Source: Perkinsus olseni
Lineage: Eukaryota > Perkinsozoa > Perkinsida > Perkinsidae
DNA: 59,998 nucleotides
Reading direction: 5' to 3'
NCBI GenBank assembly: GCA_013115135.1
Contig: JABANP010000316.1
Coordinates: 1 to 59,998 of the forward strand
Shown: in pieces, positions 35,078-59,983 of the stretch
Layout: each line of letters begins with the position of its first letter
Numbering within the stretch: position 1 is the stretch's first letter
Notes under the pieces: generated by a model
Databases searched by the model: none
What the model saw: the letters and a program-made list of their open reading frames with translations, nothing else
Told to the model about the DNA's origin: nothing
Position numbers and translations under genes: made by a program

Positions 35078-37158
35078 CGGTCATGCGGAGGCCCCGCATC
35101 ACCGACTCCCACATCTACTACGCCGAAGGCGAGCGTACCACCGGAACCCTGGTCCAGACACATCGACCAAGCCAAGCAGACGGCCCACCCCTTCGACGCC
35201 CCCTGGAGCCCTCGCTCACAAAGATCATCAAGGAGGCTAACGCCATCGGCGACTCCAAAGCCCTCAACGACTACCGCACAGAGAGGCTCAGATTCTGGGA
35301 GAGGCGGTCTACCTCTCCAGAGATCGAGGCGCTGAGAGCCGAGCTACTCCGGGACGCTGACGAAGCCACCCAGCACAGACTTAGGAAGGTAAACCTACCG
35401 CTGTTCTCTGAGATGCTCACTACTATAGGCCACTGCGACACCGCACTACCCCACGACCTTTGCGACGGCATGAGGATCACCGGTACCCTCACCACCAACG
35501 GCCTGTACGAGCCCAAGGACGCCGACCCGCCGGTAGACAAGGAGGCCGCCCTCGATAGCGCTTCCCAACAGCGCGCCGAGCTTGGGCACTACGATGGGAA
35601 CTCCGATCACGAGCTCGACGAGGCACTCTGGCAACAGGCCCTGGCCGAGACCACTACGAACCGACTACGAGGTCCCTTCACCGAGCAACAGCTCAACCAC
35701 AACCACAACGGGCGCTGGCTCTATTCCCCCAGGTTCCCCAAGCGCGAGAGCGACAAGATTCGGGGGATAGACGACATGAAGGCCTCGTCGGTGAACCTCC
35801 TCACGTCGGTCCCGGAGCTCATCCACTTGGATAATCTCGACAACCTCATCGCCGCCCTACAACTCTGCAAGGAGCACGACTCGCAGCATAAGCTGAGAAG
35901 ACACTACGTCATCGCGAAGGGCGACCACCGGCAGGCATACCGCCAGGTAGCAGTCCACGGCGACGACTACGACGTCCTCTACGTCCGCCTCCGCAACCCC
36001 AACACCGGCACTTGGAACTTCTTCCAACACCTCACCTTACCGTTCGGCAGCAAAGGCCAGCATGTTGCAGTACACCCGCCTGGCCAGAGCGCTCGTGGCC
36101 ATCATGCGGGCGGAGTTCAAGTGCCTGGCCTTCAGTTACGTGGACGACTACTTCTTCCTATGCGACAAGGGCCAGGCTGCTCTGTGCTACCAGATCTTCA
36201 TCAGACTGAACGAGCTTCTGGGCTTCGAGGTCAAGCGGGAGAAGTCGTCGAGCCCTCCGCCGAAGGCAAGCTTCTAGGTATACTGGTGAGGATTGACGAT
36301 GACTCCCATCACGCTCGACATCTGCCCGGACCGGGCCAAGCGGCTGACCAAAACCATCGACGACCACCTCCAGTCAGCGTCCATCACCCCTACCCAGGCC
36401 TCTAAGCTGGCGGGGAGACTATCCTTCGCAGCCACGAGCTTCCACAGCCGCTGCGGCCGGGCCTTCCTAAGAGCCCTATACCACAGGGCCAACGACACCA
36501 ACTACGGTCATCATGGTAATAACAACGACGAGGCCCTGGCAGCGCTCAGGTGGTTCAGGTGGGCCATTACGGCCTGCCCTAGCAAGATCGTGTACCTCCA
36601 CACCAACACCCCGCATGTCATCCTCTACACCGACGCCGAGTTCTCCTACACCGGCGACCCCCCAACCGCGAAGAGCGGCGGCATTGGAGCGGTTCTTGCG
36701 ATCCCCAACCACCAGCGCGTGTTATGCCTCTCCTGGCCACTCCCCGCGGACGTCTTCGACTTTCTGGAGCAACGGCAGACCGACATCCATCCATTGGAGG
36801 TCATGGCGATCCCAATCGCACTACACCACTGGCTTACCACTATGGTCCCTCTGCAGCTAAGCTGCAGCAGCTTCTACTTCGGCGAACCGGCGGCATCAAC
36901 ATCTCCCTCTACACGGACTCCACGGTCGCACAGGGGGCCCTCACCAAGGGATCTTCCCTCTGCAGGGACATCAACAACCTGGTAGCGGCCACATGGAAAC
37001 TCTGCGCCGAGAACAACGTGGGCCTCTGGATTAACCGGGTTACCTCCGAGGAAAACCCCGCCGACCTACTCAGCCGCCTGAGGACTGACACAATCCGAAG
37101 GCTGGGGTGGACGACAAGCAACATGGAGACCACTCCCCCCTGGCGCGAATGGCTATAG
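35074..37158 (+). CDS. YR-retroelement reverse transcriptase and RNase H, several frameshifts
   Basis: Starts MTVMRRPRITDSHIYYAEGE. RT motifs: KGDHRQAYRQVAVH, then FQHLTLPFGSK, and FSYVDDYFFLCDKGQAALCY with the YVDD catalytic pair. Then KREK and GKLLGILVRIDDD, the thumb entry. RNase H: VILYTDAEFSYTGD, then LEVMAIPIALHHWL, INISLYTDSTVAQGALTKGS and VTSEENPADLLSRL; the last is the typical DIRS-class ending. One-base frame changes occur at about 36055, 36250 and 36290, and a 14-bp hairpin insertion at 36859-36872 breaks the RNase H frame. Enough is intact to assign the family; not functional as assembled. Confidence 0.8.
36859..36872 (+). repeat. 14-bp hairpin insertion in the RNase H frame
   Basis: TGCAGCT is followed by A, AGCTGCA and GCAGCT. 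Deleting exactly these 14 bp joins TMVPLQ to the downstream LLRRTGG frame without a stop. Confidence 0.85.
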
Positions 37159-37293
37159 GAGCTCAAGTGAGCTACGGCACCCCCGCGAACGGGCACCGTC
37201 ACCCCAACAGTGGCCACCACTACCTTCGTTTCTAGCTAAGGCCGCCGCGCTTGCGCTAGGGAGGGCACGACGGGCCACCCGCGTCCCCCAACG

Positions 37294-38824
37294 GTGGTCA
37301 CCACCTGCTCCGGGTTACCCTTTGATGGCGGACACCGCCCGCGTAACTTGCTCTGCCCCGCTGCCTTACCTTTTCAGCTTTACGTTTTCCCGTCTCACTC
37401 AGGTCAGACCCCACATGACATCTCTCGCCATCTCGAGGCAAAGAGGATCCTACGGCATCTGAGGAGCGTCGAGAGCTCCACTTTCAAGACCTACTTGCAA
37501 GGCGCGAGACACTATGCCAGGTTCTGCGGGGCCTTGGGGGTGAGCGACTACTTCCCCCCTAAACCGCTCGTCTTGGCATGGTGGGCCATACGCTGCTTCC
37601 GGTGCCAAGGCAAGCGTGCCACGCTTAGCGTGGTATCCACTACGCCACGGTCAAGTCTATCGTCAAGCGCGCTGACCACACCTGGGAAGCCGCCACAAAG
37701 GCTCCCTGCGACAACGATACTCTCCTGGACGCCTTCAGGACGGCCCGGTTCGCCGTCGTCTGCCTAGCGGCCTACAGCTGCGCTCTCCGGGTACGGTCCG
37801 AACTGCTCATCCTGAACGACTCCGCTATCTCCTTCGACAAAGAGGGAGGTTTCACCATACACCTGAAGCGCAGGAAAAACATCCCGGAGCCCATGTTGGG
37901 AGCCGGAAGCACGCACTGAGTTATTGTTGATAGCCGTTCGAGTCCCATCTGTGGATGACTCAGAGTTACGCCCATTTTCAGTAACCATGACTAATCAACA
38001 CAATAACCAGTTCTTGTAACCAATGATCCTTACTGATAACCGAGTGATGTACACAGTGTAAACCCAATCGTATCCGAAGAGCAATAGATACCTCAGAGGA
38101 ATACACAGATAATAACCCAGCAAACACCACAGGAATAAGGCTTGCCAATAAGTCTTATAACTTCACCTACTTCTCAGTCTTATACAGACTTATAGAGCGT
38201 CTAGGCTACGCAGCTAACACATAAAGAGACAGACAAGATACTCAAAGACAATGACACAGATCAATATCAACGCAGATCAGTCCTCAGAATCGCCACAGAA
38301 TGACGCGCTCGCCACTTAATAGTCAAACTGCGCAAAGTCTCCCAACACCCACGGAGATACAACGGCCCTGTGTATGCCGAGTAGACCCGGAGTTCTGTGC
38401 CTCCCACCGACTCCGCTACCTACACGACCTTCTGACTGGCTCGCCGCCTCACACGGGCCCAACGGCGAGCAGTCCTCGGTTCGGGCGCTGGTTCCCAATG
38501 TCTCTCGAGCACTCCAACGGCGAGCTGCGAAGGACGCTAACACTCTGCGGCTATCCTGAGACGGAGGTCTCGGCCTACGCCTCCCACAGCCTGAGGAGGG
38601 GCTCTACTGAGGACCTAACCACCGGAGGCGGCCGGGCGACCCTAACCCAAGTACTGCGACATCAACAGGTCTGCAGCGGCAGCTACAAGCGCTGCATGGA
38701 CCTGCACAAGGCCGAGAACCTGGAATTCCTTCAGCTAATGGGGAACATCGTCGAATCGGACAAGGGCACAAATGCTACCAATGGGGCTGACCGCGGAGGG
38801 ATCCCGTCACACGGGCCTCTATAG
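37294..38824 (+). CDS. YR-retroelement tyrosine recombinase, interrupted
   Basis: N-terminal core-binding part: DISRHLEAKRILRHLRSVES, then STFKTYLQGARHYARFCGAL. Catalytic part: YSCALRVRSELLIL (first Arg), ASHSLRRGSTEDL (His-x-x-Arg), VLRHQQVCSGSYKRCM (second His and the nucleophile Tyr). All residues of the R...HxxR...H...Y signature are present. The frame is broken by a 14-bp hairpin insertion (37619-37632) and by a ~415-bp insert (37917-38333). The enzyme would join a circular cDNA to its target. Confidence 0.8.
37619..37632 (+). repeat. 14-bp hairpin insertion in the tyrosine-recombinase frame
   Basis: AAGCGTG is followed by C, CACGCTT and AGCGTG. Removing the 14 bp restores the frame from CQGKR into IHYATVKSIVKRADHTW. 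Confidence 0.85.
37917..38333. mobile_element. ~415-bp insert in the recombinase gene
   Basis: Sequence with no coding capacity separates LKRRKNIPEPMLGAGSTH from RPCVCRVDPEFCASHR, which should be adjacent in the recombinase. It begins TGAGTTATTG and ends near AATAGTCA, is A-rich, and contains GTTCGAGTCC, like a pol III B box. A 4-bp ACTG flanks it on both sides. It could be a solo LTR (TG...CA) or a SINE; the exact ends are uncertain. Confidence 0.5.
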
Positions 38825-39077
38825 GCTCCCTCTGCGGTTGTGCTCCTACCACACTTCCACTATCTCTCGACATCGTGCCCACGGCCTGCGCCATGGCAGT
38901 TGTATCGGCTGTCTCTGCTACCCTCGCATGCCAAGCCCAGGTCCGTGCGTCCGACTGAGACTATTTAGCAATCAATCGCTAGACTTCCCCCACGCTCCCA
39001 GCGTACGGGCTGAAGGTTTTCCCATGTATAATTACACTGTGTCGTGTTGGCGTCGCTCCAGTGGGGAATGTGTTAGT
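38814..39077 (+). repeat. Split direct repeat B1
   Basis: Begins GGCCTCTATAGGCTCCCTCT; matches B2 except that B2 has a 14-bp insertion. Confidence 0.85.
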
Positions 39078-39078
39078 T

Positions 39079-39213
39079 CGCGGCGTGTTGTCGCACACGA
39101 AGTGACTAGCACGCCACGGGAGCGCGCCTCCATATCTTTTGCGCCGTTTCATCACTCGTTGTCGCAGCATGTTGTAGACGGCTGCAGTTCTCTACCATTA
39201 TTTGTTTTTCGCA
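39079..39213 (+). repeat. Split direct repeat A2
   Basis: Second copy of A1, lying directly after B1, as expected when an element is copied from a circle. Confidence 0.85.
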
Positions 39214-39230: not shown

Positions 39231-39508
39231 GGCCTCTATAGGCTCCCTCTGCGGTTGTGCTCCTACCACACTTCCACTATCTCTCGACATCGTGCCCACG
39301 GCCTGCGCCATGGCAGTTGTATCGGCTGTTTCTGCTACCCTCGTATGCCAAGCCCAGGTCCGTGCGTCCGACTGAGACTATTTAGCAATCAATCGCTAGA
39401 CTTCCCCCACGCTCCCAGCGTACGGGCTGAAGGTTTTCCCATGTATAATTACACTGTGTCGTGTTGGGCCAACACTGTTGGCGTCGCTCCAGTGGGGAAT
39501 GTGTTAGT
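39231..39508 (+). repeat. Split direct repeat B2
   Basis: Second copy of B1 and right end of the element. Carries the 14-bp insertion at 39468-39481. Confidence 0.85.
39468..39481 (+). repeat. 14-bp hairpin insertion in B2, absent from B1
   Basis: GTGTTGG is followed by G, CCAACAC and TGTTGG in B2; B1 (39047-39058) goes straight from GTGTTGG to CGTCG. Confidence 0.92.
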
Positions 39509-39906
39509 CGGACGTCCTATCAGTTAAGAGATAAATTCAAAGCCAACAAACAACTAATCAAAACGCAAACGCAACAAAACAGCAACTAAACAAGTAACTC
39601 GGCACCCATGCCCACATCCCCATCACTGCGCAGCCTGGGGAAAGTATTGACCCTCCCTACTTGCTCAAGATACTCGAACAAGGTCTTTTGGCCATCTGCA
39701 CACCAGGCTCGTTATTCGATGAGCGCTTGCCGCCGGAGGACAAGTCGACCGTGCCCTCCTGTCGAGTCCGGTAGGTGACCCCGTCGGCCAGGGGACCTCC
39801 ATCGCACCGTCGTCTCCAACTCGGCTAAGATGCTCACTTCCTTTCAGTCGCGGCAATCACCGTGCTCACGCGGTAGAGACCCGAGTTATCGCACCTGAGT
39901 TTGGCA

Positions 39907-39920
39907 TTGCCGAATCGGCA
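39907..39920. repeat. 14-bp hairpin insertion, copy 1 only
   Basis: TTTGGCA is followed by T, TGCCGAA and TCGGCA; copy 2 has TTCGGCAACAG (about 59661) without it. Confidence 0.85.
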
Positions 39921-39965
39921 ACAGCCTCGTGAGAGTAGTCCTGAAGGTGCTGCCTTCAGCAACGG

Positions 39966-39979
39966 GCCGTTGCCAACGG
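39966..39979. repeat. 14-bp hairpin insertion, copy 1 only
   Basis: GCAACGG is followed by G, CCGTTGC and CAACGG. Copy 2 (about 59690) lacks it, though the flanks have diverged. Confidence 0.8.
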
Positions 39980-40161
39980 CGCGACCTGTCGAGTAGCACC
40001 TGACCATCTCCTTCGAACCAGCCCATCAAGGGACCCTTCGTTACTAGACCCATGCTTTAGCTTCGGTTGCTAACCCGATCTCTCAAAAACTCTCGGCCAC
40101 TCTCGAGGGTAGTGGGGGGCCCAGACCATTGCGTTGCGAAATTTCATCATAGTACACGGAG

Positions 40162-40175
40162 ACTCCGTGACGGAG
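40162..40175. repeat. 14-bp hairpin insertion, copy 1 only
   Basis: CACGGAG is followed by A, CTCCGTG and ACGGAG, then TCGTGCAAC. Copy 2 (59888-59903) reads CACGGAGTCGTGCAAC. Confidence 0.92.
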
Positions 40176-40763
40176 TCGTGCAACAAGATGGTGCTGATTC
40201 CGATGTGAGGCTGATTCGGGAGTTGACTAGCTTAGTGATGGGTCGCGAGTTTCTGATGCCGACTTTGAAACTCCGAGTTTCGTGCAACGCGTTGCATCGC
40301 AGCAGACTGGTGCCAGGAGTTGGCTCATTGAGTTAGGCTTCAATCTCTTCTGCTCCGGCTGTCCAATCCAACAGGGTTAGAGAACCCAACAGCGAGGATT
40401 GAGGGAATATAACAAGCCTTAATTCAGCTAGGTCAGCCTCATCACGAGACGATCGTTTCATCATGCGGTGTGGCGGGCGCAGTGGCCCTAAAGATACGGA
40501 AATGGTATCAAATCATCATAGTGTGATCAAATGAATGGAATATATACAGTGTGCTGGACAGGCATCGGTATATCCACTGTGCCCACCCAAAGCATCGCTA
40601 ACTCGACGCTCCCGTCCCTTGGCTACAGAAAACCGGACCATTGAGCGACCATGTGTATCCCGGAGCAAACAACGTCCTACACAGCGGGCATGGCTTGCAG
40701 TGCAGCCATGACTACAGTCAACGTGATTAGCCAAGCCACCTCGCTCAATGGAACCTGCCCCCG

Positions 40764-40784
40764 GGTGGTACTACCACCGTGGTA
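40764..40784. repeat. 14-bp-type hairpin in a nested palindrome cluster
   Basis: GGTGGTA is followed by C, TACCACC and GTGGTA, then by two further overlapping palindromes up to 40815, as if the process had acted repeatedly on its own product. Confidence 0.75.
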
Positions 40785-41524
40785 GTCTACCACCCTCTAC
40801 CACTGGTAGAGGGTGGGAAAAAAAGAATCGGACAGTCTCAGATACAACTAACAATCGAATGAACATCATTCGATGAAGTGAATAGGTAACGTAACCGCGA
40901 CTCTTAGACCTAGTTAGTAAACAGGAATGCAGACGCATGCCGCATCATCATCATGATCACGATCACCATCATCTTCACCATCAATTATCAGCCTGCCCTT
41001 GCACACTTGCAATTCCTCCATTGCCCTCGCGCCGATCTTGAACTCTAAAGCAAGGGCCCTTGCTTTTTCATACTATCCCGAGTCCGAGGCATTTCTCGTA
41101 GGAGCGTCTTGAACACAAGGGAAGTCATCTTGGAGATTCCGAGTCGGAATCTGCAACCTGAGGAATCTAAGTCGTCACGGGGTCCTGCTCCTGGTGAGTC
41201 GCCAGCGAGCATCGGATGCTCGCTACCTCATCTACGACGATCCTTTCGCGAAGGACTCCTTTGGAAGGAGCACCGTTTCCAGCTACCGGAGCGTCAGCAT
41301 GGTCATGGACATCATCGGAAGTGACGTGTGATCTCTCAGATGTCGTTATACTGTAAATTTAGACCTTTAAATTTAAAATATTCAACGAAGATCGAAGATT
41401 CTTCATCGAAACTGAGTTTCTCGCAACAACCACCAGGCGTAGTATATGGTATACTGTATACCTAACATACCTTCCAAAGTCTCCCAATGGAAGACAAAAC
41501 ACAGGCTTCTTGCGCTCAAACGTG

Positions 41525-41625: not shown

Positions 41626-42508
41626 CTTCGATTCTTCCGAACCCGTTCTATTGCGGCCGCAGTATCGCCCAATTTGGGCGGCCCAAACAGTGTGGACGCT
41701 ATGTGTTTACCCACTGAACTTCAGTGACTGAAGCTCAACAACGAGTCGGTGTGCAGGTTTTATTAAGTGAACAAAACACCCAATATAGACCTGGTAACCG
41801 TACTATAGAAGTACGATAGTCGACGGACGTAACAGATCGTTATACAGTAATACAGCAACGACTAATACGTCAATGCAACTAGCGCTAGAGAGACAGCGGA
41901 ACCAAACACAAAGACAACAATAGCACAGTCGAATCTCATCATCTTACTGCCTTAGCGATTCTCTACTTCATTCCGAAACCGGCACATCGGGAGTTTTCCG
42001 GATTATCGCTCACACGATGTGAGTCACATCTACATCTGACAGATGTCATCTGTCTTAAATCCTCCATGGGACATGCTTAAGCTTAGCAGCTTGGAACCAA
42101 TAATTGTTTTACTTCAACTTCCATTCTCTCGCTATATCTAGAGCTTTGGAGAGCTTATGAGGTGACACCCAAGATGCTCCAAACATCTTCAAAGTCTTGT
42201 CCTTATTCTTGAACCTAGAGATTTCCCCTGCTGTGGCTGCGGCCACTTCATCCCTCACAAAATCAATTCTTCCTCGTTTGAGGGGAATACTGAGAGAAAG
42301 GCTTTCTCAGAGAGCTATTTTCCCAAGCTGCGTGGCTGCCAGAGACACTCTGTTACTCGCTTACTTTATCGGCTCGTTCGACTCAAATTCAATCGAGCCA
42401 ATTACAGCACAAGCTGATCTGTAGCTCCAATAGGCCGAGCCTGTGACGTATCCTGGTATCTGAGTGACCCAAGACGGTTGCAATGATGATACTTATATCG
42501 TCGTACTA

Positions 42509-43474
42509 CTATCGATCATTCTGCAATGACATTATCATAATCACAACCGAGCCCACGTGCGCGAAACTAGTCCTTACACCTTTCAGATAGGTCCAAATTT
42601 GCCAGGGATGAATTTCTTCCTCATCGTACACCATTGCTTCCTCGAAATCCCTCCGTAAAATCCAGGCTATGACTAGCGGAGCGAAGGTCTCAGGATGCTC
42701 GCTCATGAGCTTGTTCATGACTTTGATGTCAGGTATCTCTGTTAATGTTATTCCTGTTGTTTCCAGCTCCTTGAGAACCATCTTTCCCCATTGGATTATG
42801 GCCTCTTCACACGACTCGCCACCGCCGATCCTATTCAGTACTCCCGCTATCGGAAGGCTTCCAGGACTGGGGAACCACTGGAGATGGACCCTTTTGCTTT
42901 GCTCTTCCAACAACACCCATTCATCATCTTCGATTTCAAACGCGTTGGCGGCATCCTCTTGCTCATGGCTGCTCTTATTGCCGCTCAATCTATCGCAGTG
43001 AAACACTCATCCCCAAGGAGTAGCTCGATGAAGACCTACATGGTTTCTCCTAGAGTAGCATAGTCGATGACATACTTGCCCTTTTTCTTGTCAAATTTGC
43101 CAGCGACCGAAGCTTGCCACTACACGGAGCACTGTAGGAGTTCAAATTTTTATCTCGACCGCTTCCTTAAAGGAAGTTCCTCTCCCTCACCGGCTCTATA
43201 ATACTCTCCAGTTTGCTTGTGCGGAATCCTTTGAAGTCGCTGGTCTCGAGGACGCAGTCCGAATGACTTCTAATGTGGCGTTCATCGCCTGCCACAATAA
43301 CGACGAGTCCAAATAATATATGGCTATCTGCGCCAAGCCAGCTACGACATATCGACAGGGTTTGCCAGGCAGACGGCCCTCAGCCCTGACTGTGTGTGCT
43401 ACACTACCCACCAGTGCGTCTAGCCCTCGGTCTCGCGGCACGATGGTGAACGGCCTGTTGAATGAGTGAGGCAT
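42509..43474 (-). CDS. Two-exon protein of unknown function
   Basis: Exon 1 (43205-43474) starts MPHSFNRPFTIVPRDRGLDA and ends SAQANWR before GTATTA. Exon 2 (42509-42972, after ATAAG) continues in phase SSHEQEDAANAFEIEDDEWV, then VLNRIGGGESCEEAIIQWGK and HPETFAPLVIAWILRRDFEE, ending SLQNDR. Composition and codon pattern are protein-like and acidic. No domain recognised. It lies in mobile-rich DNA without obvious repeats of its own, so it could be a host gene or a transposon passenger. The splice is my proposal. Confidence 0.4.
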
Positions 43475-43654: not shown

Positions 43655-44203
43655 TCACGGCCGGAAATGTGATTCTCGTGCACTGGAAATAGGTGAAGAT
43701 TTTGTGCGGCGCGATTTACGCAGCGCGGTAGAAATAGTATCTGTCACCAATAGCCCCGCTTTATGGGAATCATGATGCTCGAGCTGGTCCTGCATGAGAT
43801 TGAAGTGTGCGAAGTGAGTCGCTTCGTGACTGCCAAACCGTATAGTGGTCACTTCAAGTGACCACTGTATGGGTTGGCAGTGTCGGCATCGCAACTGTAC
43901 GACTGAAATCTGATTGAGTTGAAAGTAAGCGGAAGAGCCTTGTACAAATATGTGTTCCATGAGTTGCCGCTGCACAATGTGATCCCCACCCTCGCCCCTC
44001 GACAATAGCCTGTTCTCAGCAGGACTATACGCCGGGCCGCCCGGCCCGGGCGTGTTACTCCCGGTTATGCCTGCCAGGCAGGCGCTGAATGCTCCTAGGC
44101 CGAAATCGTGGACACCATGAGCTGTATTTCCACCGACTCGCGCACGAGGACGGCAGGTTGGACGGCGATACCCTGATTCCCTCTCGAGGAAACGAATCGG
44201 CAT
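43655..44203 (-). CDS. Possible protein-coding frame with embedded hairpins
   Basis: The 182-codon frame reads QGSSAYFQLNQISVVQLRCR, then SHEATHFAHFNLMQDQLEHH, plausible protein. Three palindromes (43842-43868, 44031-44051, 44066-44080) fall inside it and stay in frame, which is odd for a conserved gene. There is no start, splice or similarity evidence. Confidence 0.2.
   Translation of the reverse strand: MPIRFLERESGYRRPTCRPRARVGGNTAHGVHDFGLGAFSACLAGITGSNTPGPGGPAYSPAENRLLSRGEGGDHIVQRQLMEHIFVQGSSAYFQLNQISVVQLRCRHCQPIQWSLEVTTIRFGSHEATHFAHFNLMQDQLEHHDSHKAGLLVTDTISTALRKSRRTKSSPISSARESHFRP
43842..43868. repeat. Long-arm hairpin, 11-13-bp arms around one C
   Basis: ATAGTGGTCACTT / C / AAGTGACCACTGT, one mismatch in 13; farther out GCCAAACC and GGGTTGGC also nearly pair. 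Confidence 0.75.
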
Positions 44204-44208
44204 CCTCG

Positions 44209-44233
44209 GGACTCTCTCGAGTCGAGAGAGTCC
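44209..44233. repeat. 25-bp perfect palindrome, 12+1+12
   Basis: Arms 44209-44220 and 44222-44233 around G44221, followed by A as the 14-bp rule predicts. Confidence 0.8.
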
Positions 44234-44505: not shown

Positions 44506-44549
44506 CTCACAAGTTGTGAGTCACAACCCCAACACAGTGTTGGCAACAC
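44506..44549. repeat. Two adjacent 14-bp-type hairpins
   Basis: CTCACAA-G-TTGTGAG-TCACAA and CCAACAC-A-GTGTTGG-CAACAC, three bases apart. Confidence 0.8.
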
Positions 44550-45006
44550 TTTTGACTGAGTATTTGAGTAGTCCTCTGAGGACAACTCAGGACGCACGCC
44601 GCACACGAGTGACCGTGAACTGTAATATATGCTCCGCTCGCTTCGCTCGCTCCGCAAATTATTGTGAAATTTCAGTAAACTTTCAACCTACGTAGTAAAA
44701 TCATTTTACACTACCTAATGACGAGCGAAGGATCGATTCTGAGAATGGAGGGTGGGTTTACTAAAAACCCGTCCTGAAGAAAGAAACTGCAGCACTTGCT
44801 GCGAGAGCTTCTACGAGCTGCCACAAAATGAGGATTTTATCCTCGCTATGGCCGTCCTCGCGTGATCTGAGATCACTGATCTCGACTCATCATCGACAGA
44901 ACACTACCCCTGTGTGAATCCTGTCGAACAACATCTTCCACAAGTAGCTTCACTCAGAGCTATGGCAAGGGTCAACCTGTAATCCTGAGAACCATCGTAG
45001 CCGGGG

Positions 45007-45028
45007 AGTCAGAGTCTCTGACTCAGAG
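45007..45028. repeat. 14-bp-type hairpin
   Basis: AGTCAGAG is followed by T, CTCTGACT and CAGAG. Confidence 0.75.
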
Positions 45029-45241
45029 ACAGGAAGAAGCTCCTTGTGCAGGTGATGCCTTTCAGTGAAAGGCTTTCACAGTTAGAGGTGTCAGAAAGTC
45101 TATTGCTTCCGCAGAACCCTTTGCAGTGCGGACGGTAAACAGAACACTTTCGATCTCAGCACGGCTACGAAATTGACTTCCCTGAAAATTTTTCAGGAAT
45201 TTTTCAGTGAAAAACTCTCGATGCCGCCAAGCAACAATACA

Positions 45242-45313
45242 AGCTGGATGACGAGGTCGAACCGCCGACCTTCAATTTACAAGACTGACACTCTACCACT
45301 AAGCTAAACCGAC
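45242..45313 (-). tRNA. tRNA-Thr (UGU)-like gene, possibly decayed
   Basis: Minus strand, 72 nt. D arm GCTT-AGTGGTA-GAGT, anticodon arm TCAGT-CTTGTAA-ATTGA (five pairs, anticodon TGT), variable loop AGGTC, T arm GGCGG-TTCGACC-TCGTC. Boxes A and B are good. The acceptor stem GTCGGTT/ATCCAGC has two mismatches, so it may be a pseudogene. The LTR retrotransposon starts 14 bp upstream of its 5' end. Confidence 0.6.
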
Positions 45314-45331
45314 TTAAGGATATCGGTGCTG

Positions 45332-45345
45332 ACAGCACCGTGCTG
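45332..45345. repeat. 14-bp hairpin insertion in the 5' LTR, absent from the 3' LTR
   Basis: CGGTGCTG is followed by A, CAGCACCG and TGCTG, then TGATG. The 3' LTR reads TGCTGTGATG. Taking it out places the LTR end directly next to the target duplication. Confidence 0.92.
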
Positions 45346-45544
45346 TGATGCTGTTGCCTTCATTGCTGTGATGTCTCTGCCTTGAGTACTGTACAGTGTA
45401 ACTCCGTATTGCTATGTTTCTATAGGTCGCCAAGTTGATCTATTCCACCATAGCTATTTTGTTGCGGTGTACGCAAGTACAATTCTGCCTCTCGGCTTAC
45501 TCTGTGCTGTTGTGTTAAGCACAGTACCTAGGGCATCTGCAACA
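45341..45544 (+). repeat. 5' LTR
   Basis: 204 bp shared with the 3' LTR without a mismatch. The five bases of the true left end (45327-45331) are separated from the rest by the 14-bp insertion. Confidence 0.9.
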
Positions 45545-45580: not shown

Positions 45581-46423
45581 ATGCCCTTCAAACTTGAGAG
45601 CGTGCTCAACCCCTATGATGGTGTTGGCGATTTTGCCCTGTGGCTTCGGGATTTTGATACTGTGGCGTCGGCTTCTAGGTGGAATGCCAAGCAAAAAGAG
45701 GAATACATCGTCCTCTTCATGGTGGGTTCTGCTAAGGACGTCGCTAGACAAGCAGTTGATGAGGTAGACGAGGATGCCGAAGATGATGCCGCGTATGTGA
45801 ACGTGGTGAAAGCATGAGGGCAAGCATTTTCATTGAAGACCCATGAGGCTTGGAGGCTGCTCACTACAAGAACCTGGGATGTAGCCCGTGATACAGTGGA
45901 CGGTGTGATGGCCGAGTTCCGCCGCTACATCAAGGTCCTTGGTGTCATGACTCCTGTTCCGACGGAGATCATCCTGAGGGAGAGCCTTATGGCTTGTTTC
46001 CCTGAGGATGTCAGGCGATCCATTGAGGTATTCTACGAGGACGGAAAGGAGCTGAGTTTGGCCGACATTGTTGCCAAAGCCAGAACCTTGTTGAAAACTC
46101 ACCAACGTGCATCACCGTCTGTAGCTGCTGGTGTGGTGACAGGTGGCAAATATTGTTATAAATGTAAGCGTGTCGGTCATACTGCATCGGAATGCAGGCG
46201 AGTGGGTGATGGGAAGGGTCAACCCCCTCAGCAAGGACAAACTGGCAAGGGCAAGGGGCCTCGATGCTTTCGTTGTCATAAAGTAGGGCATATCGCCCGA
46301 GAGTGTCCGTCGAGGAAGCAGTCGTCCGTTGGAGCAGCAGGAGCAGCTGTCCAAGAACAATCTGATCTGGGTTTTCCGCCGGCAAGGCAACCTCAGGAGG
46401 GCGGGGTTTCCTTGCATATGTAA
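45581..46423 (+). CDS. Gag polyprotein with one in-frame stop
   Basis: First ATG after the LTR at 45581 (MPFKLESVLNPYDGVGDFAL). A capsid-like helical region includes KQKEEYIVLFMVGSAKDVAR and AWRLLTTRTWDVARDTVDGV. Two zinc knuckles, CYKCKRVGHTASEC and CFRCHKVGHIAREC, follow near the C-terminus. A TGA at 45815-45817 splits the frame after VVKA; the rest continues in the same frame. The end (SLHM, stop 46424) overlaps a -1 frame that leads into the protease. Confidence 0.75.
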
Positions 46424-46424
46424 A

Positions 46425-46818
46425 ACGTCCTCACCTACTCTGTAGATTTGGCCAAGAAGAGCACCAGGTCCCGGTCGATACTGGGTGTGACAGTAGCCTG
46501 ATAAGTGCACAGTTTGTTGAGAAGAAGGGTATCCCTGTGGAGACGTCTACGGGACCGGTATCTTTCCGACTTATGGATTCATCTGCCACTATGAAAAGCC
46601 ATGGCATTGTGAAGGTTGGCGTTGAATACCTGTCAGCAAATGGTTGGGTCCATGTCACACAAAACTTCCATGTTGTTAAGAACACTGCTCTCGGACCGGT
46701 GGTGCTGGGCAATGACTTTGCGGCTCTACATTGTCAGGGTATGACATGGGATGAGCACGGCCAGATCACTGTTGCTGCACGGGTGTGCGAGGAGAAGGTG
46801 AGGAGGTTGAGGAGGTGA
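46425..46818 (+). CDS. Retropepsin-type protease domain of pol
   Basis: Frame -1 relative to gag: VKRPHLLCRFGQEEHQVPVD then TGCDSSLISAQF, the DTG active site, and later LGPVVLGNDFAALH, the flap and C-terminal strand of an aspartic protease. It ends at 46818; the downstream frame is shifted by one. Confidence 0.7.
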
Positions 46819-50092: not shown

Positions 50093-51196
50093 CAAGGCAA
50101 ACTATGTGTCCACCGGCACAGGAAATCTCCGATCTCGAATCAGCTGAGCCGGCTTGAGAAGCTTCCAAAAAGCAGAACTGCATGGGGCATGCTGTTGATT
50201 ATGTCAACATTATAAAGATTGTGAGGTATTGTTCTTGCGGTCGTAAGAGATGTTCCCCCATTCACTGGCGTCGAGTCAGAAGTGCCTGACGAAGTCCCTC
50301 CAGTTCTCCACAGAAATGACGACATTAATCTCAGATTCGTCAGAGTAGGATTACACGACAACAGGACGGCTCACGAACTGCAACATTGACTGACCCCGCC
50401 TCGGAATTCTCTTCAGTGACACGAGCGTGATCGTTAATGGCATTAACACGATATCAACTTAATGTCGAAACAAGGTTACCGTGTAGGAAGGCAACTATGA
50501 GCGGGGTGGAAGGGTGTTATATGAGAAAATGATGCAGCTTGGATGCATACGGCAAATACCATTTGCCAAATAGCAAGCGATGAATTCATGCTGAAGCATA
50601 TCGGGACAGGCCCAGTGCTGCACGCTGAGCGTGCGTATTTCCTTGCGCTAGCACGATTATATGGGTGACCCATATCATACATGCCGGTCGCATGGAAGCG
50701 TCTCCCTAGTGCACAAGCGGGCATGCTCAATGATACACATTGTGTATTACACAATATATCGGTTCAGGTATTCCGGTATGGGAAACGTCCACCCAATGTT
50801 TTGGGCGATTTCAGTCGATTCAATTCCCGTGACAGGAAAGGGCCGGGACACTGGGAATTTCTCAGTGGGAAATCTTGTAGACATTGACGGCCGGGGCGTC
50901 ACTGCCCGAGACCGCCGGGCTGAATCAACTTTCCATCGAGAGCCCAGGATAGATAAAGCTTCTCGACGCTCCGGCCTTCTCGGCCAGTATCCAAGCAAAT
51001 CCAAACCTCCGAGGTCCAACTCTGCATATGCCTACCCCAACCTGACGCTGCGCCCTCTCAAGACTCAGCACGCGCGAAATCGTGACATCCGGCGAGATTA
51101 TCGAGACACCATCCTAGCGTAGAGGAAGACTTGCGATCCGCCTGGGCCGATACATAAGGGCAAGATCTCATAAGCTTACGTAGCACAAGTTGCTCT
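50093..51196. other. Flank without a firmly supported gene
   Basis: A 153-codon plus-strand frame (50661-51122) and a minus-strand frame (50747-51019) overlap. The plus frame (VGNLVDIDGRGVTARDRRAE) is the more protein-like, but neither has a motif or splice support. Confidence 0.3.
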
Positions 51197-51603: not shown

Positions 51604-51970
51604 ATCCAGGAGCAGCACGGGGCATTCCGGAGACTCCTTGGGTGTAATGTTTGCTTAGGCATGGTTTGACCTTCCAGTCTAATGGATACAAATATTGGTC
51701 TATAGTGTCTATCTCCGTAGCGCTCAGGGTGGTTTCAGCTCAAACCAAAATTCCCATATCGCAGGCGACGCGATCTCTACGGAATCCGTAGTACGGATAA
51801 CGAGCGTATAGCCTCCTATTGCTTAAGAGTCATCGACCAAAGGCTTTGGTTTAAAGCTGTATCATACAGCCTGTATGCTGCAACTTGCAACAATCTCAGT
51901 CCAACAGGGGCGGTAAGTGGATACTGAGGTAAGAGGTGATTCAGAGTCTGAGAGTCTGAAAAATTTTTTA

Positions 51971-52412: not shown

Positions 52413-52432
52413 CACTGGCAGCCAGTGACTGG
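52413..52432. repeat. 14-bp-type hairpin
   Basis: CACTGG is followed by CAG, CCAGTG and ACTGG (three-base centre). Confidence 0.75.
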
Positions 52433-52946
52433 CTCCCATGCACGCCCCCGTGCAGCACTTTACCCCCGGGTTACCACTTGACTCAACACAGGCGTTACGA
52501 AACTGTGCTTGTCTCCACTTCCTGGGGTCCACGTGCGCTCCTCTTCCCCCCGGGGGGGCCCGCGGGTTCTCTCCCCCTCTAGGCGTCACCGATGTACGCA
52601 CGCCGGGGGTACACACGCCACTTCTTCCCAGTGTGCCTCCCCAGCTTCGCCTCGGGACGGCTTGTCCGCTGGGTTTGCTTCTGAGGCTACTCGGGAGGAA
52701 CGGATCGCGATGTGTTTCACGGCAACGTATTCCCACAACCGCCCTGACTACGCCGTTCACGTCCGGCGAGCCGGCTGACTCCTTCAACTGCCGAGTTGGT
52801 GTCGGACACTCTGTTGTCGGGTGCGCTGTAGACTTTCTGCTCCCTTTTTCGTAGAAAGGGCGTCCTAGACAGTTTCTGTATCGCGCCGAGCTGGGCCTGC
52901 GACTCCCTTTGCGGTTGAGTCTCGCCTTGCTCCACTGCCTCCGTCA

Positions 52947-53269: not shown

Positions 53270-56200
53270 TCCTCGCTGCTTGTTTCTTGGCGCCTCCGTC
53301 TGTACTCGACTCGACTAACTCGAGGCTTGGACCGCCGTCACGGCGGCGCCGTACCTCATGCTACGGGTCTCTGTGACTCGCCAGATCCCACCGTTCCCAG
53401 TGTTGTGCCAACACTCTCTGCACGTTGTGGGAACTTCCTTGGCGCCGTGTTATAGTCTGTTCTCCTGCAACTTCCCAGCTGACCACCACCTGTAGCGACA
53501 TGCCCGCCGGTTCTGTGCCTCAGGGGTGCACGACTGCTGATGGAACACAACCTTTTTTTTCCATCGCCGGCCTACACCCTCACCTCGGGAGGGTTTTGTC
53601 AGCCGGGTTCGCTTCCGACTCTGCCCTTGCGACGAACGTGCCGTCGTGGTCCACCGCGGTATCCTCCCTGTGGGCCACAGGCTGTGGCCCACAGGCTGTG
53701 CAAGGCTCCCACAGGCTGTGGGAGTCTTTCACACCTGGCAGACTACGCGGTTCACATCCACCATAGAAGCGGTTGACGTCGGCTGCGGCGCGCCCGCCGC
53801 CGCCTCCCTCTTCGCCCCGACGTTCCCGGCGGACGCTTCCCGCCTTCCGGACTTGCAGTTCCCGGGCTTCCTCGCTTAGCCTTGAGCGCCTTATCGGCTG
53901 CTCGGTTTCTCGGCGGGGGATCCCGACAAGCCGTGGTTCTCTCCTTCCCTGCTTACTCCACTGCTACACGTCTGCTTCGGCCTAGTTGCTCCCTGAGGGA
54001 AGTTCCCTCTTAGAGGGACTACTCCTTCCCGGGGCCCCCAGGCTCGGGGGTTCGTAGTACCACCTTAGTACCCGCCTGTACGCCTTTCGTGGCACATCCT
54101 TTCTCTCTTGCGGTCTTGAGTATCCCTTCGAGGGGGCTTCGGCCGCATTAGCTCCGCTTGTTACTCTACTCACGTACACCTTCGAGCGGCTTTGCCGCTA
54201 TCTTGTGCCAAGCTTCTTGTCCCCGTCCCCTCCCAGTGGGCTAGTGGGTAGCACCCTCTATCCGCTTCGTGTCTACTAGCTGGCCTGCTCCTCGGCTCCC
54301 CTTCGCCGTTACTGCTTCTGCGTCGCGATGAGTCTGCTTCCTTACCCTGGGGGGATCAGTACCTACCATCGTCCAGCTCGTACGCCATAATCCGGCTCTC
54401 TGTCTTGCATTTCTTCTGCTCTGGGACCGCCCAAGTGGTCACGTCACGGGCCTCACGTGGATCTGAGGTTCTCGAGGACCTGCCCCCTAGAGGTCTCGAG
54501 GCTCCTTTTGTCTTGCTCCTGTGACAGGCCGCCTCGCTCTCGTCGCGTACTCTTACTTCGGGCGGTCCGCCCGATCGAAACCCGGGTGGATCCGGGATCC
54601 ACACTAGGACATCTCCGAATTCACCGTTCCGCGTCGCGTCACGACGACCCGTGCACTGTACACCCTCTGCGCCTGGCAAGCATAACCCTAGTAGGGTTAC
54701 CCTACCCTTCTGCCGCATCGGCTGCACCAGCACATATCCGGCACTGAGTCCACGCTGTGCCTACCCCAGAGTTGGTCCCTGTGTGTTCCGCAGTGTGGAC
54801 AGCGCAGGTTTCCGCGATGGGCTGTTCGCTCGCTTCGAGTACCTGCGGAAGTCACTGCACACCGCGTCGGTCCTTTCCGCTCTACCCCAGTCCGTTGCCC
54901 GGCAGTGGTTCGGATCGCCTGACGCAATTGGCCCGGCCATGTTGGCCCCACTGCACCTTGCACGGGTCAGGGCTCCCAGATTCGGGATGACTCACTGCTC
55001 TGCACCATGGCACCTGGTTGGACGGCCTTCATCCTGCGCATGATGGCGTCCTGCTCAATGGAAGCTTCCACTGATAGTGTCCTGCTCTTGCAGACTAGCG
55101 GAACGGATTACTCATTCGCTCTCAGCCTCCGAGCCAGAGGTCGGCCCCCGCTGGGTTCCCGCCCGCCCGCGAGTCGAGAAGGCGGTCGAGGAGGTGAACT
55201 CCGGGAGTAACTCCAGGCTCCGCTGGCCTGTTCAGCCACCGCGGCTACTCTATCGTTTGTAGCACCTGCGCGGACTCATTCTCTCCTTACGTGACGCTAG
55301 TTGCGTCATGAGCTTCGGTGTCGTTATCGCCAGTGGCGACTCGCCACCATTTGTGTGTCCACTTCATCCGCGTGATTTGTGACAACTCCTTCGTCTCATA
55401 CCAAAGGCTGTGGTCCACAGCCACCATCTCTTTGTGTCACACAGTTCGTGGAGCTACGTGCCCGTTCACGACGCTTTGAGTCGTCTACTTCGCTCACTGG
55501 GATTTGTCCTCCACTCTGGTGACGCTTCCCGCGTGGACTCCGTTTCGTGCTCAGTGAGCACTGCTCACCCGACGGTACAGGGCGGGCAGATTACCGCTTG
55601 TGGGTACTGCACTGCCGCTACCCGAGCAGCCACCATTCTGCGGCGCAGAATCTGCGCTGCCAGTGCACCAACCCGGCATGCAGTTCATCCAGCATCAGGT
55701 GTCGCTCGGAGTCCGAGCCTCGGACGTGTCCGGATTCTGCTTCCTTCTCTCTACAACCTTCCGGCGGCTGGTGTCGCCTCACACGGGGGAGTTTCTCCTA
55801 CCCTCCTATCCGGCCACTGACTCGTGCTGCTTCGGCAGTAGGCACGGCCTTCACGAGGCCTTCCCGGAGATTCTTCCTCGGTGGGTGTCGGGGTTGTACT
55901 AGCACCTCGCGCATACGGCCTCCCGACCAGCTTCTCCTCGGGGCCCCCGAGTCGGAGGATATCACAGCTGCTGTGATTGCTGCAAACAGCGTCTCCGATC
56001 TCCTTCTACGTTCGTCTCAACCCACGCGGTGCTGCGCTTGAAAGCGTCGCAGATACACCGTATGCGCGACACCAGCAGCTGGCTCGCCCTGCGGCACAGC
56101 ACTCGGTAGGCACTCGTTAATCTCGCTAGTCAGCGGCTCCTCGTTCCCATCGTGAGCGGAGTCGCTTGCGTGACACCACGCAGCGACCATGCGGTGCTTT

Positions 56201-57621: not shown

Positions 57622-57716
57622 GGGGTCGCCTGGTAGGAGTGTCTCCTCCCCGGCTGATCGATTCGCGACTTGAGCTCTTTTCCCATTGTATGTTACGCAA
57701 GGTCGCGGACGAAGAG
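57622..57716 (-). repeat. 95-bp direct repeat P, copy 2
   Basis: Nearly identical to 57334-57428; runs straight into the 67-bp palindrome. Confidence 0.85.
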
Positions 57717-57720
57717 TCTG

Positions 57721-57787
57721 AAAAATTTTTTATCTCTGAATTAAGAGTCTGAATTTCAGACTCTTAATTCAGAGATAAAAAATTTTT
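57721..57787. repeat. 67-bp perfect palindrome
   Basis: Arms 57721-57753 and 57755-57787 (33 bp each) are exact reverse complements around T57754. It is AT-rich and would extrude or fold as a single hairpin. Confidence 0.92.
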
Positions 57788-57980
57788 AGAATATCGAGAT
57801 GTTGGAACGGTGCGTGCCAATCAATGGTCTCGGGGCAGAGTGCAACTTGCACTGTGCAAGGACTCGGCGGTATTAATGGTACGGTTGCGCTCCCCAGTCG
57901 CCGCAGCCCAGTCTGGGCACGATGCCGGTAGGTCACCCAGCTAGCCACTCGCTCATCCGCAAGCTGACTGTCAGCCGCTG

Positions 57981-58400: not shown

Positions 58401-58458
58401 ACCATACTACCCGATGTTCTGATGCGTCTGACGCCTACGGTTGAAGGACCTATTGGAC

Positions 58459-58472
58459 GGTCCAATTTGGAC
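58459..58472. repeat. 14-bp-type hairpin
   Basis: ATTGGAC is followed by G, GTCCAAT and TTGGAC. Confidence 0.8.
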
Positions 58473-59234
58473 CCGTTGAGAGGGCCTTCCATCGGGTCCT
58501 GGCCGGCCTGGCCGGCAGATTCCTCGACTCCAGTCTTTCCGTCCCGACGGCAATAGAGCACAGACAATGCACCTTAAAATATGAATTGAATTCGATAATA
58601 GCGAAGGTGATTTCAATATTCGTCACACTGTGACACCGGTGTTACAAGCTAATACCCCTTAGCGAAATTCACAACAGATCCTCGAGTCCTTCCAAAGGAC
58701 TCCTTCAGCGGCTGAAGTTCAGCCACCCCCCGACGCCTTCTCCTCCCAGGCTGGAAGACTCAGCGAGGACGTTCGAAAAAAATCCAACCGCGTGCGCTAC
58801 GGCCCTCGATATAGTATATCGGATATACACATGACACAACTGTCGAAGCTCGACAGAAGCATTTCAACGGAGACACTCATTGCATGAGAATCGCGATTCG
58901 CGAGAACACCAAGATGCCCGAATCTGCTCTCGCCAACTTCTAGGAGAGATCGGGCGGGGCATGGTCAACAACGATCTAACTTCCCGAAGGTGGGAATCCG
59001 CGCGGAAATCTCGTTAAGCGCTGGCCGAGACCTTGTCTCTGTCTTCCTTCGACTTCGCCTGGCGGAATTCGTCTAGCCATGGCCCATGGCCCATGGGCCT
59101 CGTGCTTCGCCTTCATCTCGTCGATATTCCTCTGTACAGACTGTGATTGGCCTAAATCAGCGTCGTCATCGCCATCATCTCCATCTTTTCTCAGACTTCG
59201 GCAGCTCTGCGCCTGGGTTGCTCGGCCATGATCC

Positions 59235-59248
59235 GGGATCATTGATCC
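59235..59248. repeat. 14-bp-type hairpin
   Basis: ATGATCC is followed by G, GGATCAT and TGATCC. Confidence 0.8.
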
Positions 59249-59763
59249 CAGGGATAAGATCGGATCCCAGGGATTCCCTGCTGCCGGCGCAGCAGTGCTG
59301 CGCCCCTGATCATTCGATGAGCGCTTGCCGCCGGAGGACACGTCGGCCGTGCTCTCCTGTCGAGCCCGGTAGGTGACCCCGTCGGCCAGGGCCCTCTATC
59401 GCATCGTCGTCTCCACTCGGCCAAGCTGCTCACTCCCTTTCAGTCGCGGCAAACACCGTGCTTGCGCGGCAGATCTCGTAACTTACGAACCTCATCCCGC
59501 TTACCTAGGTTTGGCAAGACTCTTATGGCCTGCCTCACGAGCTGCTTGCTTTGGGAGATATCACTCGCAAACATGCCGACGAGCGAGTTGTAGATCTTAC
59601 GTAAATGGGAGAGCGAACCCTCAATGTGACCCGAGTTATCGCACCTGAGTTCGGCAACAGCCTCGTGGGAGTAGTCCTGGAGGTGCTGCCGTCGGCAATG
59701 CCGCGAGCTGTCTAGTAGCACCTGAGCATCTCCTTCGAACCAGCTCATCAAGGGACCCTTCGT

Positions 59764-59777
59764 AACGAAGGCTTCGT
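59764..59777. repeat. 14-bp hairpin insertion, copy 2 only
   Basis: CCTTCGT is followed by A, ACGAAGG and CTTCGT; copy 1 (40035-40045) reads CCTTCGTTAC. Confidence 0.92.
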
Positions 59778-59910
59778 TACCGGAACCATGTTTTCAGCTT
59801 CGGTTGCTAACCCGAGGGTAACCCGTTTAGCTCTCGAGAGTAACGGGGCCCAGGCCTTGCCTTGCTCTCCGAAATTTCATTGTTGTACACGGAGTCGTGC
59901 AACAAGATGG

Positions 59911-59924
59911 TCACCATCTGATGG
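59911..59924. repeat. 14-bp hairpin insertion, copy 2 only
   Basis: AGATGG is followed by TCA, CCATCT and GATGG; copy 1 (about 40186) reads AAGATGGTGCTG. Confidence 0.92.
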
Positions 59925-59969
59925 TGTTGATTCTGATGTGGGGCTGATTCGGGACTAGCTTAGTGATGG

Positions 59970-59983
59970 TCCATCACTGATGG
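59970..59983. repeat. 14-bp hairpin insertion, copy 2 only
   Basis: AGTGATGG is followed by T, CCATCACT and GATGG; copy 1 (40231-40245) reads AGTGATGGGTCGCG. Confidence 0.92.

Follow-up and report, generated by a model that had tools for sequence, protein, structure and literature searches.

What kind of event writes inserts of constant length whose bases differ at every place? The question arises from a 59,998-nucleotide stretch of a Perkinsus olseni contig (JABANP010000316.1; hereafter the window), for which a first-pass annotation had described many copies of a word followed by its reverse complement and then by part of the word again, and had attributed them to a self-templated insertion process. 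The analysis presented here indicates that these 14-bp inserts are most probably excision scars of DNA transposons of the hAT family, in which hairpin-capped flanks would have been joined through the 8-nt target-site duplication.

The inserts share a single form

The repeated construction is real and proved tighter than had been claimed. All exact cases have one form, namely bases 1-7 of an 8-bp target T, the reverse complement of T (T') and bases 2-8 of T, such that a scar occupies 22 bp where the empty site has 8 bp (+14). The window contains 35 perfect +14 copies (Table 1), 16 of which were absent from the earlier list. The 28 loci on that list comprise 19 perfect cases, six with one mismatch (28808, 29290, 39907, 41440, 42009 and 55333) and three longer one-base-centred palindromes (6262, 9306 and 44209), where 42009 and 44529 are classed from the lists of perfect and one-mismatch starts and each has a better or equal neighbour. 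Several of the decompositions reported earlier (1+7+6, 1+8+5 and 3+6+5) collapse into this one structure, having differed because of chance extension of the arms or a single substitution, while 1+12+1 and 1+13+0 are other, longer palindromes. The view that the insert is built from its own flank and is itself no mobile sequence holds; its bases differ by site and derive from the target. A 6-1-6'-1-6 core is found at 39 places in the window, and at 35 of these both outer bases are paired as well, leaving t8' and t1' as the centres. Across all 354,496 bases examined there are 109 perfect +14 scars, or 95 distinct ones because some loci overlap, and a rough extrapolation suggests a genome total of several thousand or more.

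Table 1. Scars of the +14 form, longer two-sided scars and one-base-centred palindromes in the window.
Feature	Position	Strand	T	Remark
+14, perfect	29654..29675	.	TCGCTCGT	
+14, perfect	36852..36873	.	TGCAGCTT	
+14, perfect	37612..37633	.	AAGCGTGG	
+14, perfect	39461..39482	.	GTGTTGGC	empty site in window paralogue 38814-39077
+14, perfect	39959..39980	.	GCAACGGC	
+14, perfect	40155..40176	.	CACGGAGT	single T in copy near 59890
+14, perfect	40764..40785	.	GGTGGTAG	
+14, perfect	41666..41687	.	CGCCCAAA	
+14, perfect	41712..41733	.	CACTGAAG	
+14, perfect	42032..42053	.	ACATCTGT	
+14, perfect	44031..44052	.	GCCGGGCG	
+14, perfect	44506..44527	.	CTCACAAC	
+14, perfect	44529..44550	.	CCAACACT	
+14, perfect	44862..44883	.	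GTGATCTC	
+14, perfect	45008..45029	.	GTCAGAGA	
+14, perfect	45058..45079	.	CCTTTCAC	
+14, perfect	45325..45346	.	GGTGCTGT	
+14, perfect	50733..50754	.	ATACACAA	
+14, perfect	51777..51798	.	CTACGGAT	
+14, perfect	51856..51877	.	GCTGTATG	
+14, perfect	52413..52434	.	CACTGGCT	
+14, perfect	53667..53688	.	CCTGTGGC	overlapped by one-mismatch scar at 53674
+14, perfect	54684..54705	.	AACCCTAC	
+14, perfect	55547..55568	.	GTGCTCAC	
+14, perfect	55636..55657	.	TTCTGCGC	
+14, perfect	55704..55725	.	GCTCGGAC	
+14, perfect	57839..57860	.	AGTGCAAG	
+14, perfect	58452..58473	.	ATTGGACC	
+14, perfect	58703..58724	.	CTTCAGCC	
+14, perfect	58807..58828	.	CGATATAC	
+14, perfect	59076..59097	.	GCCATGGG	
+14, perfect	59228..59249	.	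ATGATCCC	
+14, perfect	59757..59778	.	CCTTCGTT	
+14, perfect	59905..59926	.	AGATGGTG	single T in copy near 40180
+14, perfect	59963..59984	.	GTGATGGA	
+14, one mismatch	9437..9458	.		
+14, one mismatch	11394..11415	.		
+14, one mismatch	28808..28829	.		
+14, one mismatch	29290..29311	.		
+14, one mismatch	39900..39921	.		
+14, one mismatch	41249..41270	.		
+14, one mismatch	41441..41462	.		
+14, one mismatch	42009..42030	.		
+14, one mismatch	42294..42315	.		
+14, one mismatch	43162..43183	.		
+14, one mismatch	50552..50573	.		
+14, one mismatch	50851..50872	.		
+14, one mismatch	53303..53324	.		
+14, one mismatch	53332..53353	.		
+14, one mismatch	53674..53695	.		overlaps perfect scar at 53667
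+14, one mismatch	55326..55347	.		
+14, one mismatch	55400..55421	.		
+14, one mismatch	55937..55958	.		
+14, one mismatch	57740..57761	.		overlaps longer one-base-centred palindrome
Longer two-sided scar, arms 14/3	9313..9342	.	CCAATAGA	+22 bp if empty site = T; no empty copy seen
Longer two-sided scar, arms 7/13	40779..40810	.	GTGGTAGA	overlaps end of 40764 scar
Longer two-sided scar, arms 8/7	45182..45214	.	CTGAAAAA	
One-base-centred palindrome, arms 13	6262..6288	.		T resumes afterwards for 3 bases only
One-base-centred palindrome, arms 12	44209..44233	.		T resumes afterwards for 4 bases only

Target length and target consensus set the scars apart from chance

A set of 20 second-order shuffles, covering the whole 354,496 bases examined, contained no perfect +14 structure, compared with the 109 observed. 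When target length was varied from 4 to 12 in the window, the perfect cases numbered 29, 0, 1, 0, 35, 0, 0, 0 and 0, with shuffles giving 17 at length 4 (a mild excess of real over shuffled cases) and 0.9 at length 5, and no perfect case with a target of 7 or 9-12 bp was present in any record examined. The fixed measure proposed earlier exists, the measure being the 8-bp target and not 14 nt.

The targets themselves are not random. Among the 95 distinct scars T at t2 and A at t7 are enriched (chi2 17.3, 3 df), the flanks being flat, and the two occur together in 18 scars where 5.5 are expected. Genome-wide, the scar pattern for GT....AC targets had 454 matches, and those for the composition-matched TG....CA and AC....GT had 119 and 83; among the first 50 matches listed for each, 32, 5 and 14 respectively were perfect (24, 3 and 13 distinct). 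Scaled from these listed matches, there would be about 291, 12 and 23 perfect scars, making the GT..AC class approximately 12-25 times commoner than its two controls. The local sample of 95 includes 2, 1 and 1 scars of these classes, too few to show the genome-wide preference. This consensus fits the nTnnnnAn preference described for the hAT transposase Hermes (PMC6900584, PMC2803484) and differs from the nnnTAnnn reported for TcBuster (PMC3499496).

The same data bear on whether an inverted copy could have been written by replication template switching or fold-back synthesis. Four-point template switches produce an inverted copy followed by resumed direct copying, which the scars resemble. 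Short template-switch mutations, however, vary in length and lack a target consensus, whereas length 8 is the one target length to stand out in these data, and both a consensus and symmetric one-base centres are present; the single length and the consensus speak against this origin, which we consider very improbable.

Repeat copies reveal the empty sites

The first-pass annotation had named a 14-bp spike in indel lengths as a confirming observation, and the comparison of repeat copies shows one: 15 rows have 14-bp indels and none 13 or 15 bp. All 15, at least two of which duplicate a scar already counted, carry the reverse-complement-plus-repeat signature at up to two mismatches, nine of them perfectly. 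In the perfect rows the insert-free copies carry T once, and the window repeats at 40155 and 59905 each have a single T where the partner has an insert.

Scars also age. With a target of length 8 there are 109 perfect scars, 59 with one mismatch and 76 with two, while the same tally at length 9 gives 0, 4 and 6. Alignments of duplicate copies contain scars that are common to the duplicates and others that are private, the most scarred pair differing by 40 substitutions and six scars. The scars come from one assembly, which would be compatible with an assembly or sequencing artefact, but their decay, their distribution among duplicates and the target consensus followed genome-wide leave that explanation hardly credible.

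A different possibility is that a transposase, or a domesticated relative, acts on the bare 8-bp target, in which case the scar would be a lesion, either abortive or programmed, that may be directed at repeats. Consistent with this, the estimated scars far exceed the recognisable hAT genes, no occupied site (a transposon still sitting in one copy of a repeat whose other copy is scarred) was noticed in alignments of 51 records, and scars are clustered, with none in 12 of 20 chosen 10-kb stretches and 11 in one (L021). On the other hand, hAT hairpins form in the DNA next to a bound terminal inverted repeat, which a bare target lacks, a few cut-and-paste copies suffice for many scars, and clustering could reflect selection against +14 frameshifts in genes. 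Overall we regard such bare-target action as quite unlikely.

Longer relatives display both flank hairpins

Searching for identical T at both centres identified 106 distinct structures at length 8, of which 96 have the +14 spacing and 10 lie at +22 to +64, while lengths 6, 7, 9 and 10 gave 21, 5, 0 and 1, strewn over distances as long as 588 bases; with the distance capped at 60, the 20 shuffles together produced 1 at length 8. The ten longer double-palindrome scars display both flank hairpins around one T, with centres t8' and t1' as in the +14 class. In one pair of records (L039 and L038), one has an empty T=CCCGCGTA, and in the other the scar measures 64 bp and shows both palindromes, with arms of 15 and 17. 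The claim of a constant 14-bp insert consequently holds for scars of the T(1-7)-T'-T(2-8) form and fails for these ten, which would insert 22 to 64 bp, lengths that were compared with an empty copy in one of the ten (the +64 case) and otherwise presume that the empty site is T. Identical use of T and one-base centres in these longer relatives, together with the symmetry of the scars and the hAT target consensus, favour repair after transposon excision over the self-templated insertion first proposed.

One-base centres are also in excess among palindromes outside the 14 class: with arms of at least 10, 17 have such a centre, while centres of 0, 2, 3 and 4 bases number 4, 1, 3 and 1. At least 4 bases of T resume near the arm end in only 6 of 37 one-base-centred palindromes outside the class, and most of these are unexplained in detail.

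hAT elements are present and suggest a route to the scar

Features of hAT footprints found here include the 8-bp target duplication, centres complementary to its end bases, the nTnnnnAn consensus, and hAT transposases along with elements bearing terminal inverted repeats (TIRs). The genome has 21 matches to the hAT dimerisation domain and 6 to DUF4371, four of the latter above cut-off. Matching 8-bp duplications, GTCCGGAG and GTCTGATG, one of them without A7, border two elements whose TIR is TAGAGATGGGCA, either exactly or at 1 and 2 mismatches; matching duplications occur in only 3 of 10 terminal-repeat pair rows, which represent these two elements.

Duplications of 8 bp are known in several superfamilies, Merlin (8-9 bp) among them, and P and others also make them. 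Identical chemistry could be performed by a hairpin-forming transposase from outside hAT, for instance from Merlin, P, a MULE variant or an unknown superfamily that duplicates 8 bp, and remnants of Merlin have been reported from Perkinsus marinus (PMC8101967). The IS1595-type DDE domain of Merlin, PF12762, nevertheless has no match in the genome, hAT genes are present and the consensus is that of Hermes; we consider a non-hAT source unlikely.

Several observations count against, or sit awkwardly with, a hAT origin. No occupied site was noticed in the alignments, few terminal-repeat pairs have matching duplications, and the hAT elements found are few beside the thousands of estimated scars. The diverse, mostly short footprints described for hAT elements elsewhere (PMC5873905, PMC3499496) also contrast with the pattern here. 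Counts of the classical short hAT footprint classes are at or below expectation, and for GTCnnGAC targets genome-wide there are 25 perfect +14 scars (some of which may be copies of one repeat), no perfect short footprints and one plain double T. We nonetheless file the scars as a hAT variant because diverse short footprints are the usual outcome and not a chemical requirement.

Under hAT excision, the element would insert and duplicate 8 bp, and the excising transposase would later link t7 with t8' in the left flank, and the mirror-image bases in the right one, to form hairpins in which a single base, complementary to the end base of the duplication, stays unpaired. We infer that a nuclease would cut both hairpins open 8 nt or more away from the tip, exposing 3' overhangs that start with T' and T, and that these complementary 8-nt overhangs would anneal before flaps were trimmed and nicks sealed. 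The product would always be 7 + 8 + 7 = 22 bp replacing 8, the constant 14 arising because of duplication length alone. Where annealing failed, the opened palindromes might be joined otherwise, giving the longer scars (+22 to +64). More tentatively, and with slightly less than even confidence, we propose that both hairpins open at the outer edge of the duplication and anneal via its 8 nt in nearly every excision, each leaving an identical 14-bp frameshifting scar, a route not known to have been described elsewhere.

Comparison with known systems

Ac/Ds elements, whose excision footprints are known from yeast, Candida and plants, duplicate 8 bp of target. V(D)J coding joints gain palindromic additions (P nucleotides) by off-centre opening of hairpin-capped flanks; the scars would share these two features, but the joints are RAG-made, diverse and without an 8-bp duplication. 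Ascot-1 of Ascobolus, also hAT-type, leaves footprints with strongly biased palindromic additions and many distinct products at one site, in contrast to one product at many sites here. Mitochondrial double-hairpin elements, the comparison drawn in the first-pass annotation, likewise consist of two adjacent palindromes but are, as described, a mobile sequence, whereas the bases here vary by site and are target-derived.

In Candida, the inverted repeats of Ac/Ds footprints have as their centres the complements of the bases next to Ds, a geometry that the scars share, and the account given invokes hairpin opening followed by joining and discusses microhomology (PMC5873905). That study describes 28 different products in 128 colonies, while one product dominates here, and palindromes no longer than 3 nt in Candida but reaching 20 in S. 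cerevisiae, compared with the full 8-nt inverted target (PMC5873905). For TcBuster in human cells, hAT-type as well, small flank-complementary insertions are described and hairpins inferred, but with few inserted nucleotides, deletions and its own consensus (PMC3499496). Kat1 of Kluyveromyces lactis makes hAT-type hairpin-capped breaks on flanking DNA, yet is domesticated and performs a programmed switch at a single locus (PMC4763223). Flank hairpins are common to V(D)J recombination and hAT transposition (PMC6900584). What is new here is nearly a single product, without an excess of classical short hAT footprints.

Implications for mutation and genome history

Footprints of hAT excision are otherwise known as a messy spectrum, dozens or hundreds of them coming from reporter assays. 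The near-exclusive product seen here, whose sites are estimated to number several thousand or more, isolates the depth of hairpin opening before joining and provides natural data on it. If the scars do stem from hAT excision, a single repair outcome would be a notable source of mutation in this genome; since +14 shifts the reading frame, scars would be harmful to repeats and gene models, and to the transposons as well. If, in addition, nearly every excision takes the one route, excision would be a standing mutator of the genome's repeats, and thousands of past transposon visits could be read from the scars. Past DNA-transposon activity could be tested for cheaply in any genome by scanning for the 22-bp pattern, no transposon sequence being needed, and scar decay could date that activity.

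Introner elements of dinoflagellates, whose insert is spliced from transcripts and is described as having direct repeats of 3-5 nt (PMC7789003), were rejected as a match. The direct repeat of a scar measures 6 bp and flanks an 8-bp inverted core built from the target's own bases.

The scars have one form and one target length

The first-pass annotation had described, at 28 loci, a word followed by its reverse complement and a second copy of its end, with inserts of 14 bp. This construction is borne out, and the exact cases consist of positions 1-7 of an 8-bp target (T), the reverse complement of all eight bases of T (T') and positions 2-8 of T. Eight bp thus become 22, and the gain is 14 because each of the two junctions lacks one base of T. 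Nineteen of the 28 loci are perfect by this description and six carry one mismatch, while the other three proved to be other palindromes. Within the window, a six-base core with one-base gaps was found 39 times and the other gap combinations tried 0 to 2 times each; outer bases on both sides pair as well in 35 of the 39 cores. Sorted by target length, perfect structures in the window number 35 at 8 bp and one at 6 bp, with none at 5, 7 or 9-12 bp. Across 51 records (354,496 bases, loci partly overlapping) there are 109 perfect length-8 structures, 95 of them distinct, and 20 shuffles of all 354,496 bases gave none. About 0.35 Mb of the genome was analysed as full sequence, and the remainder through pattern and domain searches. 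The same construction on a 4-bp target shows a mild excess in the window (29 versus 17 in shuffles).

Scars are insertions relative to repeat copies

The annotation had also proposed an indel-length check, and the outcome agreed with it: all-versus-all alignment of the records returned 15 rows of 14 bp, at least two of which count a scar a second time, and none of 13 or 15 bp. Other indel lengths included 1 bp (88 rows), 6 bp (14), 7 bp (10) and 12 bp (5). Every one of the 15 rows of 14 bp bears the signature with at most two mismatches, and in the nine that are perfect the insert-free copy holds a single T. Several of the 6-, 7- and 12-bp gaps also score low mismatches because they are located in badly aligned scar regions of L038, which together with L039 forms a pair of duplicates. 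These two records are separated by six scars, five of +14 and one of +64, each private to one copy, and by 40 substitutions across three alignment blocks totalling 2,277 columns. They are the most scarred of the compared pairs; in many others at most one scar accompanies 3 to 147 substitutions.

Target preference, geometry and longer scars point to hAT transposons

Three lines of evidence, namely target preference, geometry and longer scars, point to hAT transposons as the origin of the scars. The target favours T at position 2, A at position 7 and G at position 1, with flat flanking positions, and the reported preference of Hermes is nTnnnnAn (PMC6900584, PMC2803484). Genome-wide, the scar pattern was matched 454 times for GT....AC targets, 119 times for TG....CA and 83 times for AC....GT. 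Among the first 50 matches listed for each, which stand in contig order and include repeat copies, 32, 5 and 14 are perfect (24, 3 and 13 distinct), and scaling from these gives estimates of about 291, 12 and 23 perfect scars, respectively. With regard to geometry, hAT excision is described as leaving hairpin-capped flanks (PMC6900584), and in Ac/Ds footprints the inverted repeats have the complement of the element-adjacent base at their centre (PMC5873905); both centres of the scars here are exactly such complements.

The genome contains 21 matches to the hAT dimerisation domain and six to DUF4371, four of the latter above cut-off. Two elements with the terminal inverted repeat TAGAGATGGGCA or a close variant and matching 8-bp duplications were found in 10 pair rows examined, and a family-blind search for terminal inverted repeats with 8-bp duplications yielded six candidates, one of which is a hAT element. 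Alignments of the 51 records paired no scarred copy with one that still carried a transposon. Fixed-length fold-back synthesis, an assembly artefact and Merlin were considered as origins and rejected. Among the titles and abstract openings listed by searches of open-licence papers, none described such scars or hAT excision in Perkinsus. One hAT transposase gene itself holds a scar (see table), which sits at a point of reading-frame change.

Hairpin opening could account for the constant 14

The constant gain may reflect how hairpins are opened and annealed. If both hairpins were opened at least 8 nt from the tip, 3' strands would be exposed, the left one starting with T' and the right one with T; these would be complementary across exactly the 8 duplicated bp, and annealing, trimming and sealing would produce the observed 22-bp sequence at any opening depth. 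Such an account would predict few short footprints, which matches what is seen. In the local data, short footprint classes are at or below expectation. Across the whole genome, GTCnnGAC targets gave 26 matches in the +14 form, of which 25 are perfect (backward control 0), one match, not perfect, in the short form (control 6), and five matches to a plain double T (one perfect; control 9).

Longer scars share the same target length. Paired one-base-centred palindromes sharing one T of length 8 occur 96 times at +14 spacing and ten times at +22 to +64. Within distances of up to 600, target lengths of 6, 7, 9 and 10 gave 21, 5, 0 and 1 such pairs, and 20 shuffles at length 8 gave a total of one over distances up to 60. 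A scar in L039 has two palindromes, with arms of 15 and 17, separated by 24 bases; its duplicate L038 holds the empty T. Two perfect one-base-centred palindromes reach arms of 23 bp, and only the one in record L021 has a recognisable second half; a test of one-sided palindromes for resumption with T found little.

Scars are numerous, clustered and of different ages

Structures with zero, one and two mismatches number 109, 59 and 76 at length 8 versus 0, 4 and 6 at length 9 (overlapping loci and frames included), and the scars therefore decay and have accumulated through time. Twenty 10-kb stretches of long contigs, which are chosen places rather than a random draw, contain 23 scars, with 12 stretches free of them and one holding 11; scaled to 61.5 Mb, this corresponds to about 7,000 scars. 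Dividing the GT....AC estimate of 291 by its local share of 2/95, a ratio of very few counts, would give about 14,000.

Of the perfect scars in the window, 16 lie within 36.0-45.4 kb and 18 within 50.7-60 kb, with none at 45.4-50.7 kb. The retrotransposon-like stretch here, which lacks perfect scars, is perhaps a young insertion. Elsewhere in the window one scar runs into another, as though an element had visited a scar left by a different one, and 10 bases separate a tRNA gene from a perfect scar.

Coordinates of features in the window and in other records of the genome
Feature	Record	Position	Strand	Details
Words shared by two segments	window	about 25360-25860 and 32230-32730		
tRNA-Thr gene	window	45241-45314	minus	
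Perfect scar beside tRNA-Thr	window	45325		
Retrotransposon-like frames	window	45833-49796		zinc-knuckle, DUF7047 and integrase zinc-binding matches; reverse transcriptase match weak, below cut-off
Two overlapping scars	window	53667-53695		
Perfect +14 scar in hAT transposase gene	L034	1352-1373		at overlap of DUF4371 and dimerisation open frames
Palindrome, 23-bp arms	L021	2779-2825		
Palindrome, 23-bp arms	L036	1270-1316		
Regularly spaced spliced-leader motifs	contig C268	207-236 kb		
Regularly spaced spliced-leader motifs	contigs C41, C270, C871			

Other repeated features

A genome-wide search with a spliced-leader sequence as pattern yielded 87 matches. Of these, 85 share one form, which equals PmaSL1 of Perkinsus marinus across the 21 bases searched (PMC3101222). 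On this ground a fungal origin was dropped and a Perkinsus-type protist is likely, but the genome, at 61.5 Mb, differs in size from the ~86 Mb stated for P. marinus in that paper. On four contigs the motifs are regularly spaced, either every 1.75 kb or so with the members of a pair 165 apart, or every 3.35-3.5 kb, and are probably tandem arrays. Within the window, the recurrence of common words 6,870 bp apart suggests a long direct duplication. Finally, 6-mers repeat at a spacing of 24 bases 672 times in the 51 records, versus about 120-140 at adjacent spacings, a large excess which suggests that one of the loci carries a tandem repeat of 24 bp.
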